DNA of 64,000 nucleotides from Syncephalis plumigaleata (taxonomy: Eukaryota; Zoopagomycota; Zoopagomycetes; Zoopagales; Piptocephalidaceae), in NCBI GenBank assembly GCA_025201365.1, contig JAIXMF010000005.1, positions 1,302,001-1,366,000 on the forward strand, in the 5' to 3' direction. Of the stretch, positions 1 to 4,759 are shown in pieces (positions within the stretch are counted from its first letter, which is position 1; every line of letters starts with the position of its first letter). The notes beneath the pieces were generated by a model, which was not told the origin of the DNA, did no database searches, and saw only the letters and a program-made list of their open reading frames with translations. Position numbers and translations under genes: made by a program.

Positions 1-1275
1 ATGAATGTGCTAATACTGATATGGCCCGCAATCCATACGTATGCCCCGGTATGATAGTGTGTAAGTTATCATTTCATTTATAAACTATGGTGTACTAATT
101 ACAATCTGCCATACAATTCATATATCTGCCTATAACAGTGTGTAGGTTGCCATTATGACCGTAATGAATGAATGTACTAACTATGATATCGCCCATGATC
201 CACATACGCCCATGTATTACAGCATGTAAGTGATCATTCTGATCATAATATCAAGTGTACTAATACCAATGTGGCCCACTACCGCATACGTTCGTGTATG
301 ATAGAGCGTAAGTTATCATTTTGACTACAGTGAATGAATGTACTAACCACGCTATGACATACGATCCACGTATATTTCTGTTTGATAGACTGTAAGTAAT
401 CATTCTTATCGTAATGTATGAGGCACTAATCATAGTACGGCATGTGATTTACATATGTTTCTGTATACCAGCCTGTAAGTCATTATTCTGGCTACAATGT
501 ATCGATGTACTAATTATGCTATGGCACACGATTAACACATGTCTGTGTATGATAGGGAGTAAGTAATCGTTCTGGCCGTAATGTATGGCATACTAACTAT
601 GATACGACACATTATCCATCTACGTTCTTGTATGATAGGGCGTAAGTAATGATTCTGACTGTGGAGAATGAATGTACTAATTATACTTTGATGCATGATC
701 TCCCGTATGATAGGGCGTAAGTTATCACTCTGATTGTAATGAGTGGGGTACTAATCATAGTATGGCACATGATTTCTTTATGTTCATGTATGATAGTTTG
801 TAAGTCATTATTCTGACTGTAACCTATGAGGTACTAATCAAGCTATGACATATAATCCACGTATGTTCTCGTATGACAGTCTGTAAGTAATCATTCTGAC
901 CGTATTATACGACGTACTAATGATAAACATGGCACATGATTTCCATACATTTGTGGATAACAGTGCGTAAGTTACTATTCCCGATGATAACGTATAGGTG
1001 TACTGATATTAATACGGCACATGATCTACTTATACTCATGTATGATAGTGGGTAAGTAAATATCGCTGACTCTAATGTATGAATGAGTACTAACTACAGT
1101 ATGGCGCATGATCCATGTATGTCCTTTATGATAGGATGTAAGTTATCATTTCAATCATCACCTACGCTACACTAATCACAATACAATCTATATTAATTGA
1201 TTGAATAGCCACGAGATTAAGCAGTAAGTAATAATCCACAATAATCATGCCCATACTAATCCATTATGATTACAG
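1..1275 (+). repeat. about 83-bp tandem array of intron-like units
   Basis: Fifteen consecutive diverged units run from the window edge to 1275, so the array starts outside the window. GT donors lie at 61, 142, 226, 308, 392, 475, 559, 642, 717, 800, 883, 967, 1052, 1138 and 1224. The spacing is 75-86 bp and usually 83. Fourteen of the 15 are GTAAGT and one is GTAGGT. TACTAA occurs once in 12 of the 15 units (for example 93, 175, 258, 341, 591, 1088, 1254); the other three carry CACTAA or TACTGA at the same place. Each unit ends in TATGATAG or a close variant, and the next GT follows exactly three bases after the AG, except at the last unit. Positions between these signals drift freely. The period, splice-like signals and constant 3-base gap are seen directly. 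That the units are functional introns is inference. Confidence 0.9.
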
Positions 1276-1441: not shown

Positions 1442-1811
1442 ATATCAACTAATGGCTGGTTCATTGATTGAATAAATATGTAATGCTATAGGGCATTCTT
1501 CTACTCTATTCATCGTTGATTCTTTCTTCTACTCCAACTATGCTTATTACTTATCGTGTGCATGAATGAGCATTGTATATCGAGTGAGGTCGTCGAATAT
1601 TGCTTACATGATGCTATTTCATCACATATGTCAGTACCCTTAGAACTATGCTTCCTACATATTGTCATTACACTTGGATTACAACATGTCATAGTTATGC
1701 CTAGGTTGAAAGTGGACAACCTTTTCTCATGTTTATATTAAATGTAAAAAAGTGTAATCACTTTATTCATCGATGGCAACTCTTTGTTAACGTCTTTGTA
1801 TGCGCAATTGA
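1442..1811. other. intergenic, 3' flanks of two convergent genes
   Basis: AT-rich sequence between the array gene and the threonyl-tRNA synthetase stop codon. Short open frames on both strands show no family resemblance. Nothing else was recognised. Confidence 0.6.
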
Positions 1812-4759
1812 TTATTCAAAACGATTTTCAATACGCTTCTCATTGGACAATGATTTCAACTTGTCAATCAATTCGGATAGCACATGTGTTTGTCCCTTGG
1901 CCTTGCTGCCAACATCATCGCGATTGCGTACGTTCACGGATTGCGTATCCAGCTCTTCTTGACCCACGACTAATAGGTGAATAGTAGTAGTAAGTTAATT
2001 AGTTAACTAACTGGCTACATAATAGTATTAAAGAAAAGAACTTACCAAAGATAAAGTTATACTGGGCGAGTTCAGCGTTACGGATCTTCTTGTTGAGCGT
2101 GTCACCGCTTAGATCGGCATCGGCATGGAATCCAGCCTCGTAGCATGCACGACGTACTTGCTCGGCATACTCGTAGAAAGTAACGGCTACTGGCACCACC
2201 ATAATTTGACGTGGTGATAACCAGTATGGCCTATATCGTAAATAGACAAGTAATAACAATATATATACGCGTTTATGTTATTTACACGAATAGTGATGTC
2301 GACTAGGCAATCATCTTACCATTTACCGGCGAAATGCTCAGTCAAAATAGCAATAGTACGCTCTAGACTGCCGTAAATAGCACGATGAATGATTACAGGA
2401 CGTTCGTAGATTACTGCACCCTCTGCATCACGGTCTGCCGTACGGTATTGCAAGTTGAAACGTTGCGGCAACTGGAAGTCCAACTGGAAGGTGGCACACT
2501 GATGTTTACGGTTTAGTGCATCAGCAATGGTAATATCAATCTATTGAACATATGATTAGTTTGCATAATGTCATAATCATATCAATAGCAGCAAAAGGTA
2601 CCTTTGGACCGTAGAATGCACCATCTCCTGGATCGACTGACCATGGTTCACCGAATGCATCCATAGCAGCACCCAACATCTAATAGCGTATAGTATTAGA
2701 AATGTAACGTAATCTACCTTGCTACCTATCTATCTATCTATCATTTACCTTCTCTGCCTTGTCCCATGTCTCAATTTCACCCAAAAAGTTGTCGGGACGA
2801 GTTGATAACTTGAGATGGAATCTAAAGCCAAAGACACCGTACACCTTGCGCATAAATTGAAGGCCGAGGTAATCTCACTTTGAATCTACATATTGATGTG
2901 CGTCAATAGCTAATTTGTACATAGTATTCATTACACCTACTTGATCGGGCGTGCAGAACAAATGGGCATCATCCTGTTGGAAGCGTCGAACACGCGTTAG
3001 ACCGGTAAGTGCACCGCTCGCCTCATTACGGTGGAGTACACCGAAATCAGCCATACGAATTGGTAATTCACGATAGGATCGATCACGATGACCGAACATT
3101 AGACAATGGCCGGGACAGTTCATGGGTTTAAGGGCGAACTTTTCCTTTTCAATTTCAAACGAGAACATGTTCTCCTTGTAGTTCTGCCAGTGACCCGATT
3201 GCTCCCATAGCTTGACGTTATAGATATTAGGTGTAATCACCTCTTGATATTCAAAGTTACGATATTCTGTCTATAGTTGTATTATATTGCATATGAACAT
3301 CAATAATGGCCATTATCATCATTCGCTTCCTAGTTACCTTCATGAAATCCAATAGTGCATTATAGATACGTGCACCGTGTGGGAAGAAGAAACAACTGCC
3401 AGGACTCAATTCGTGGAACATGAACAGTTCTTGCTCCTAAAGAGAGAATACGATGTTATACATTCTATTTATCAATCAATAGATGGTAATGAATTACCCG
3501 TCCAATCTTGCGATGGTCACGTTTAGCGGCTTCTTCGAGGAATTTCTTATAGGCCGTCATTTGCTTATTATCAGGGAATGAAATGCCGTATACACGTTGA
3601 AGTGTGTCATTATTACTGTCACCTAGGAAATACGACGACGAATTCTATTTTACATATTAGTATGTCAACGAATCTAATATAATTATATATATATATGTAT
3701 TACCTTCAATACAGCTATCGCCTTGACCTTTCCAGTGTGTGGTACGTGTGGCCCACACAAAGATCGATCAATGGACCACAACGGTATACGGTGGTAGAGG
3801 CGCCATCCTCAATCTTGCTACCAATTAAATATTGTTTGTAGGGATTATGCTACAATTACCAATATTAGATTAGCATCATAATCGCTATTCTATTCGATTA
3901 ATCTCGTCTTACCTTGAACATTTCAAGCAGATTCGCCTTGGACACCACTAGTCGTTCAAATGGTTGCTTCTCCTTCATGATACCCTTGGCTAGTGTCTCC
4001 AATGCTGGATAATCGTTCTGCGTCACTGGACTAAATGATCATTTAGTAAGAAATCTATCCCACTTTGCTACATTAAATCAATACATACCGATTATCTGGT
4101 GTACCCATCTCGTAGAAGAAACCTTCATCGGTAGGTGGGCCGAGACAAAGGTTACAACCATAATGACGTTCACAAGCCTCACCGAGAATATGAGCACTAG
4201 AATGCCAGAACACCTTCTTGCCTATGCAAATATTAAGTAACCATATTATTATTATTATTACAATAAAATGCTTGCTAGCTTACCTTCATCATGCTCAAAG
4301 TCAAGTAGTTCCAGTTTGCAGGATGCCTCCAATGGTCGAAGTAGATCCCATAGTACACCATCAACCTTGGCAATGACAATACGCTCCGATAATGATTTGG
4401 ATATGGCCGCGGCAATACCCATGGGTGAGGTCTCCCAGGCGATACCCTCGCGTGTCGATCCATTAGGTAACGTCACGGTGATTGGTACACGTTCCTTGGC
4501 TAAATGACAGTGGAGTTAGCATACATAGAGATGACATGTCATACTGCGCGACCTATCAACTACTACTTACAGGCAACTCAGCGTCGTATTGGGCTTTTAG
4601 CGATTCAAATAGCTTAATACGATGAGCAATATACTCTGGTGCCGGTGATACCTCGAGTGGAAAGGCAGATCCGCTGCCTGTCGCGCCCTTTGCTTTCTTC
4701 GCTGGTTTAGCCTTGTCGGCAACGGTGAGATCAGCCATCTTTTCCTCGATTGCAGCCAT
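1812..4759 (-). CDS. THS1: threonine--tRNA ligase, cytoplasmic
   Basis: Charges tRNA-Thr in the cytosol. It is a multi-exon class II synthetase. The start at 4759 ([11 protein letters not shown]) leads a lysine/alanine-rich N-terminus, followed by a TGS domain ([20 protein letters not shown]), the second editing-type domain with [16 protein letters not shown], and the catalytic core. The core shows [20 protein letters not shown] and [14 protein letters not shown] near 2930-3150. The C-terminal anticodon-binding domain starts at [17 protein letters not shown] and ends NRFE-stop at 1812-1814. Introns are short, with clean GTAAG/TAG borders (for example 1970-2045). Two places read one base short of the family: near 3750 ([10 protein letters not shown] is expected) and near 2863 ([13 protein letters not shown] is expected). 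Both sit in G/C runs and look like assembly deletions. An apparent in-frame TGA near 2879 disappears once a 58-nt intron is removed just upstream. Confidence 0.95.

Follow-up and report, generated by a model that had tools for sequence, protein, structure and literature searches.

A putative family of secreted-protein genes in Syncephalis plumigaleata predicted to be spliced one codon per exon

In the excerpts of the literature on which this comparison draws, the schistosome MEGs are described as genes of secreted parasite proteins, fast-evolving and hard for automatic annotation, in which the mature part is built from many tiny symmetric exons (PMC10526429, PMC4350168). The exons are mostly of 15 bp (range given as 6-81 bp in one text and as 3-81 bp in the abstract) and the introns of 0.1-5 kb (PMC10526429, PMC4350168). 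The aphid bicycle genes are described as a large family of fast-evolving putative effectors with ~17 exons on average, tiny and almost all of phase 2, and the bicycle-related megacycle gene as having more than 100 microexons (PMC9168663). An exon of 3 nt can be spliced, as described for Drosophila homothorax (PMC7392893), and the term 3-nt microexon is used in surveys of plant and Drosophila microexons (PMC8042270, PMC8831610). Fungal introner-like elements are described as introns multiplied within one genome (PMC4457414), and a 2024 abstract states that no functional microexons had been described earlier in filamentous fungi (PMC11121469). Among the matches listed from the open-licence PubMed Central literature, no report was found of rows of single-codon exons or of the family presented here. 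Conotoxin precursors have a conserved signal peptide and conserved cysteines with hypervariable residues between them, and no conotoxin mature peptide is known to be divided among single-codon exons. Introners are dispersed over many genes.

Syncephalis plumigaleata is an early-diverging mycoparasitic fungus. The window, meaning the whole stretch of 64,000 nucleotides analysed here (C329:1302001-1366000), comes from an assembly of 32.6 Mb in 383 contigs, and its left edge lies inside gene L009, exon 1 of which is upstream of the window. A VTC-domain protein encoded in the window has 100% identity to a protein of S. plumigaleata. A preliminary description made from the letters alone had proposed that the first part of the window is an array of introns separated by single-codon exons. 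All 14 of its units were recovered, each with AG, exactly three bases and GTAAGT (GTAGGT once), the triplets running from 58-60 to 1135-1137. Also borne out were the 12 different triplets among the 14 (TGT and GGC occur twice each), the intron sizes of 71-83 nt between triplets and the 15-nt exon at 1209-1223 following the triplet array. The upstream continuation that had been suspected was found as well, the array running ~1 kb further to a signal-peptide-like exon at C329:1300982. The window array very probably belongs to a gene that encodes a small secreted protein and makes up its 3' half, the product being predicted as MKFSAVIAIAAAVVALTSLVAVEASPALVRR-DLPA-CEWDYNGYCCHSTPGGGFSCWD-PRD, with one codon per exon. 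The features are listed below; the splice-only model is the gene model scored on splice signals, and the trio comprises L009 and its paralogues L064 and L070.

58-60, + strand: single-codon exon TGT (Cys), exon 12 after exon 1, opening the CC pair; paralogues L064 and L070 retain this Cys
61-138, + strand: array intron of 78 nt, GTAAGT...TACTAAT...CAG, recognised from its splice signals
139-141, + strand: single-codon exon TGT (Cys), closing the CC pair; splice-only model and paralogue trio
223-225, + strand: single-codon exon CAT (His); splice-only model, His kept in both paralogues (L064, L070)
305-307, + strand: single-codon exon AGC (Ser); splice-only model
389-391, + strand: single-codon exon ACT (Thr); splice-only model
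472-474, + strand: single-codon exon CCT (Pro); splice-only model
556-558, + strand: single-codon exon GGA (Gly); splice-only model
639-641, + strand: single-codon exon GGC (Gly); splice-only model
714-716, + strand: single-codon exon GGC (Gly); splice-only model
797-799, + strand: single-codon exon TTT (Phe); splice-only model
880-882, + strand: single-codon exon TCT (Ser); splice-only model
964-966, + strand: single-codon exon TGC (Cys), with which the Cys motif ends; splice-only model and paralogue trio
1049-1051, + strand: single-codon exon TGG (Trp); splice-only model, Trp kept in both paralogues
1135-1137, + strand: single-codon exon GAT (Asp); splice-only model, Asp kept in both paralogues
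1209-1223, + strand: terminal coding exon CCACGAGATTAAGCA (Pro-Arg-Asp-stop); in-frame TAA, at the same place in L013, L064 and L070
1224-1275, + strand: last intron, of 52 nt and within the 3' untranslated region; junction placed from intronless relatives
1276-1476, + strand: last exon, 3' untranslated; AATAAA at 1471-1476, transcript end putative

The end of the last intron at 1275, as implied by the end coordinate of the preliminary description, is most likely right: intronless relatives join TAAGCA straight to a stretch resembling AACAAGACAAGG or AGCAAGACAAGG, and such a stretch comes after the 52-nt intron in the array genes. For this intron the splice-only model of L009 picked a later acceptor, at 1310. 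The next gene downstream, at window positions 1800-4000 on the minus strand and pointing towards the array gene, is presumably a threonyl-tRNA synthetase-like gene as judged by eye.

Gene models were scored from donor, branch-point and acceptor only, the reading frame never being a term of the score; array introns were allowed lengths of 55-112 nt, and the settings for acceptor, donor and length limits were loosened after inspection of model failures. Exon 1 of L009 starts ATGAAGTTCTCTGCC, downstream of a TATA-like box. Throughout the family exon 1 reads, by eye, as a signal peptide followed by a dibasic pro-site and ends in phase 1, its length being 94 nt in 35 of the 38 models, 97 nt in L028 and L072 and 70 nt in L059. 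The phase is brought to 0 by small exons, usually of 3 nt, then 3, 6 or 9 nt, then 5 or 2 nt, after which single-codon exons run to a stop-bearing exon of 9-15 nt, usually ...TAAGCA or TAAGCG. In L009 the phase fix is followed by 22 single-codon exons; the predicted joined sequence is TGTTGTCATAGCACTCCTGGAGGCGGCTTTTCTTGCTGGGATCCACGAGAT, and the model gives MKFSAVIAIAAAVVALTSLVAVEASPALVRRDLPACEWDYNGYCCHSTPGGGFSCWDPRD. The largest case, L027 (C58, minus strand), has 69-70 introns and a predicted product of 118 residues, with many 6-nt two-codon exons in the 3' part that encode a Pro/Arg-rich tail. In L063 (C113:161300-163500, minus strand) the single-codon exons come after a run of exons of 9 and 12 nt that encode Pro/Glu-rich repeats, the same trick with larger modules.

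A genome search for arrays of AG-NNN-GTAAGT with the strict pattern TACTAACN{20,50}AGNNNGTAAGT returned 400 matches against 17 for the reversed control pattern, far above chance, and the matches listed were clustered and lay on many contigs. Scaled by 988/179, the 400 strict matches give an estimate of about two thousand 3-nt exons in the assembly, haplotigs included. The exon-1 peptide matched the assembly at no fewer than 150 places, 150 of 170 candidates having been scored, and many of these matches are probably haplotig duplicates.

Compared with the schistosome MEGs as the excerpts describe them, the array genes likewise have a signal peptide at the 5' end (here exon 1, judged by eye) and a coding region mostly of very small symmetric exons, 641 of the 670 interior exons being of 3 nt and 24 of 6 nt. 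They differ from the 15-bp exons and long introns of the MEGs in their single-codon exons and homologous tandem introns of 60-91 nt (median 80). The many tiny exons of one phase in fast-evolving putative effectors recall the aphid bicycle genes in their published description; unlike those insect genes, whose exons are of phase 2 and are not described as one codon each, the array exons are of phase 0 after a 5- or 2-nt exon and are separated by up to ~70 introns. Whereas single 3-nt microexons are isolated cases as far as the surveys describe them, here tens occur in a row. The array genes share with conotoxin-like precursors the conserved signal peptide and cysteines and the variable residues between, but not the undivided mature peptide. 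Introner-like elements are dispersed over many genes; the introns in the array loci read here lie in tandem within a single gene family, each bringing a codon with it. Introners are near-identical, and introns within the present arrays are ~70% alike (upstream introns 0.68-0.71 identical on average), clearly one family. The MEGs and bicycle genes come closest to the array genes in architecture and probably also in role, but each departs from them in at least one structural feature. The architecture was rated categorically new, tandem intron-plus-codon modules being undescribed for MEGs and bicycle genes in the excerpts by which both were compared; it would be an extreme variant if all microexon-rich effector genes were taken as one kind.

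The reading frame was evaluated in 39 array loci, of which 38 were modelled, L021 being without an intact exon 1. The start-codon frame was open in 34 of 38 models, of which 18 were complete with a stop in the terminal exon and 16 stayed open as far as the model reached, and it was broken in the other 4; with six close copies set aside, 28 of 32 were open or complete in this frame. Frame +2 was open in 2 of 38 models and frame +1 in 30 of 38, and openness is therefore a weak test that makes no choice between frames 0 and +1. An open frame alone was rejected as proof of coding on this ground, and the shuffle test and the codon structure carry the weight for coding in frame 0. Inspection of the broken models by eye revealed a missed 5-nt exon plus a 2-nt exon in L012, a 5' exon border in L014, TAGTTT where the acceptor TAG leaves TTT in L023, and a 5-nt exon taken as 3 nt in L056. 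An interior 2-nt exon, frame-breaking if real, is present in L012 (broken) and in L024 and L058 (both counted as open); the terminal exon of L058 is 14 nt. These 2-nt exons may be lost bases, sequencing errors or dead or disabled alleles. Several one-base length differences and a shifted exon 1 distinguish L021 (C35) from L020 (C15), which may reflect sequencing error or a dead allele.

Stop codons were absent from the 3-nt exons (0 of 675), whereas 2000 shuffles preserving the composition at each position averaged 17.9 and never fell below 7. The set of 675 omits eight allelic loci (L020 unnecessarily) and also L012, L032 and L063, in which no phase-fixing exon was recognised; L056 was kept. 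A separate count gave 0 of 591 against 15.5 expected, a count of pattern units in 20 loci gave 0 of 417, and the strict matches genome-wide gave 0 of 400, where only the 63 triplets with T first could be stops and all 63 were checked. With longer multiple-of-three exons added to the triplets, stops numbered 2 of 642 in frame 0, 3 of 616 in frame +1 and 76 of 616 in frame +2, one of the two frame-0 stops being the TAGTTT in L023.

The third base of the triplets was a purine in 22 of 258 cases in the eight four-fold boxes versus 89 of 203 in the AA, CA and GA boxes (Fisher P 6e-19), where a third-base purine specifies Lys, Gln or Glu. In the TG box, TGG occurred 30 times and TGA zero times. A pyrimidine seems to be favoured beside the donor and yielded where the amino acid requires a purine. 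Scored by the codon usage of five ORFs in the window, the observed triplets (-2842) ranked above all 2000 shuffles (best -2850). A match of codon usage to ordinary genes was found to be weak, the arrays preferring TTT, TAT and CCT versus TTC and CGT in the window ORFs. The synonymous fractions of arrays and the five ORFs correlate only weakly (Spearman 0.32), and splicing context therefore also shapes the third base.

The frame coherence from ATG to stop, the absence of stops from the 675 triplets, the third-base usage and a Cys motif at homologous exons together support the one-codon-per-exon message proposed in the preliminary description, with splicing deduced from the DNA. Two of the alternatives raised there, a message-less satellite and a circular-RNA array, leave these coding signatures unexplained.

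The earlier claim that the splice signals are kept was examined by comparing six close pairs of arrays, and it was upheld: substitutions affected 7 of 1226 donor positions versus 536 of 13030 positions in intron interiors, with 30 of 1317 in branch sites, 8 of 611 in acceptors and 29 of 659 in small exons. Alignment columns of 350 array introns also showed peaks of conservation at the donor, TACTAA and AG, which is partly circular because GT, AG and most signal letters entered the model score. The low rate at donors also bears on whether the arrays are relics, formerly coding and now silent pseudogenes. Such decay would fit the 4 broken models of 38, the 2-nt frame-breaking exon in three models and the shifted exon 1 of L021. 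We nevertheless judge it very unlikely in view of the lack of stops among the counted 3-nt exons, the donors preserved against the intron interiors, and the presence of TATAAA within 250 nt upstream of the ATG in 19 of the 22 models with at least 200 upstream bases.

Codon change outran intron change in some close copies and not in others. In L019/L065 only 1 of 36 codons changed while intron sites diverged by 9%, and no change was found in the 36 and 15 3-nt exons of L017/L067 and L015/L071 (intron divergence 1.2% and 1.7%). In L009/L064, 16 of 72 exon bases changed (22%) versus an intron divergence of 7.6%, and in L028/L072 the triplet bases diverged by 21% versus 8.5% for intron sites. Because L019/L065 is constrained and L009/L064 changed in excess, the exons follow coding selection and not drift. 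The trio L009/L064/L070 kept the residue in nine of 22 array exons (4-25), namely Cys 4, 12, 13 and 23, N9, G10, H14, W24 and D25, and the others change, often at 2-3 bases. These results bear directly on the satellite, or introner-like array, in which the splice signals would be incidental and the triplet a free spacer. It would account for units ~70% alike within an array and present in many arrays, and introner-like elements are described from fungi in the excerpt available (PMC4457414). The constraint in one pair and excess of change in another, the stop-free triplets with third bases dependent on the amino acid, the shared Cys exons, and a start and stop in one frame render a free spacer highly improbable.

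Among 236 exon pairs from eight pairs of arrays, 27 codons were changed, and in 17 of these codons two or three bases differed. Intron halves beside changed codons were more diverged than those beside unchanged codons (permutation P 0.002 upstream and 0.012 downstream); the same comparison with whole introns gave P 0.003 upstream and 0.14 downstream. Introns were also more alike between units of one array that share a codon (upstream 0.711 versus 0.675, P 0.001). The divergence pattern suggests duplication and conversion of intron-plus-codon units with selection on top, and hypermutation limited to the triplets is another possible source of the codon change. If units are exchanged, the intron-plus-codon unit would be a recombination cassette, and its duplication, loss or conversion would add, remove or swap exactly one amino acid with the frame kept. 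Since exchange would proceed one residue at a time and be safe for the frame, surface residues would turn over fast while the Cys exons stay, and the extreme gene structure would seem to permit stepwise change of the protein, residue by residue. We put at about even the chances that the unit is a heritable codon cassette in this full sense, with homologous introns as recombination handles, one-residue edits by duplication, loss or conversion under protection of the frame, and maybe in-frame skipping of single codons as well.

The C...CC...C pattern is present in 13 of 32 models (six close copies set aside), and the same Cys-motif exons occur in L012 and L056, the models of which are broken upstream of them. 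The intron before the first Cys exon was of one subtype in 14 of 15 genes by eye, the exception being L025; this exon therefore seems to be homologous in the different genes, in which case the array structure would be older than their divergence. Across genes, units with the same amino acid shared more intron 6-mers (0.0624) than in within-gene shuffles (0.0574, s.d. 0.0006), an excess driven mainly by Cys, then His and Trp. L016 and L013 encode Ser/Gly/His-rich or Ala/Lys repeat proteins. None of the eight proteins tested against Pfam reached the cut-off.

Family members lacking intron 1 provided a further, independent view of splicing, with junctions in the joined state. Among 20 exon-1 loci with longer open frames, 16 read through without intron 1 and L036, L038, L039 and L040 keep it; intron 1 is also absent in L029, L030 and the second exon 1 of L025. 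The members without intron 1 are L029, L034, L035, L037 and L041-L053, some with promoter homology. TAAGCA is joined to the start of the last exon in six, L029, L042, L043 (with degenerate bases after), L044, L045 and L051. In L029, exon 1 runs straight on into CCC, CTCAAGAGC and ATGAT, which correspond to the 3-, 9- and 5-nt exons, and L043 and L044 encode CDKEKCCIMDSDIC, with a Cys pattern of the array-gene kind. An intronless copy with codons equal to those of one array was not found, the best match being at family level (E 0.002, L043 and L044 versus L018). The intronless members may be processed copies, or they may represent an older form without introns. Of 12 compared, L029 has the limits expected of a processed copy, with just 72 shared bases upstream of the ATG and an end close to the poly(A) site, and no poly(A) tract was seen in the part of this locus inspected. 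The upstream sharing was 67-116 bases in L041, L043, L044 and L050 and 161-216 bases in the seven others.

In the gene models, each residue of the mature peptide has a 3-nt exon to itself, and the flanking introns, ~80 nt long, all belong to one homologous family. In the proposed mechanism, each intron would be recognised by intron definition through its own donor, TACTAAY branch site and acceptor, its length being about that of introns in a neighbouring ordinary gene; the neighbouring VTC gene has two 80-nt gaps between exon matches, one nearer 89 nt on account of a 3-residue overlap. Exons of 3 nt are too short to accommodate both neighbouring splice complexes at the same time, which makes the removal of introns one after another the likeliest route. 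The whole array might instead be a single long intron that is excised in steps by recursive splicing at ratchet sites, such that the mature message skips the triplets; AG-NNN-GTAAGT looks like a ratchet point, and stepwise removal is mechanically likely anyway. Recursive-splicing ratchet points retain no exon, the acceptor directly abutting the donor. Here, by contrast, three bases with coding signatures lie between acceptor and donor, and the intronless relatives keep residues between the pro-site and the stop (C..CC..C in L043 and L044), results that leave a message devoid of the triplets scarcely credible.

The NCBI protein P0121 (BDF22DRAFT_685685) matched the array of L057/L068 residue by residue apart from gaps, with 62 of 74 residues identical; the outside annotation, a putative gene model, therefore already uses many 3-nt exons. 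The gaps correspond to missing small exons, namely the residues matching a 9-nt exon, TGC, GGA and two further codons, and no match in L057 was found for the C-terminal residues of P0121. The gaps raise the prospect of real single-codon-exon genes in which many exons are skipped at will, the product being a population of in-frame isoforms. Nearly all exons are multiples of three, so nearly all skips would stay in frame, and the schistosome MEGs are said, in the excerpt available, to use alternative splicing likewise (PMC4350168). Against this, P0121 may reflect an error of the predictor and not a transcript, and the order and spacing of the Cys exons are conserved in the trio L009/L064/L070, which suggests a defined full-length product. 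Free skipping on this scale is possible but doubtful, and a full-length product with one codon per exon is preferred.

A profile search in which the best 8000 candidates by shared words were scored gave 20 matches: 17 S. plumigaleata proteins, one other NCBI protein and two JGI metagenome proteins. No schistosome MEG or aphid bicycle protein was among these 20 matches from the 8000 scored. The metagenome proteins, P0139 and P0140 (E 0.006 and 0.02), resemble the family in their signal peptide and dibasic site, and relatives may therefore exist outside the assembly; a search for relatives of P0139 found only P0139 itself.

The secretion, cysteines and fast evolution predicted for these proteins suggest that they are most likely cysteine-rich effectors or defence peptides secreted at the fungal host. 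If the proposed structure is true, the mature protein of a gene family would be spliced one codon per exon, across ~70 introns in the largest case read, L027, which would test the shortest exon that the spliceosome handles routinely. Introns would then serve as recombination handles for single residues, the codon-level divergence of close copies giving a direct view of residue-by-residue diversification, and a whole class of mycoparasite secreted proteins would be largely invisible to standard annotation.

An apparently unrelated second set of sites was observed, in which TAT forms the 3 nt between AG and GTAAGT at 8 places, most of them after a stretch resembling TACTAACAACAACAAC:

C27:18331, C68:485193, C223:1350240, C326:21211, C340:754819, C351:172716, C362:545043 and C364:40372, outside the window: sites of the TAT set

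These sites perhaps belong to another gene family with a 3-nt exon.
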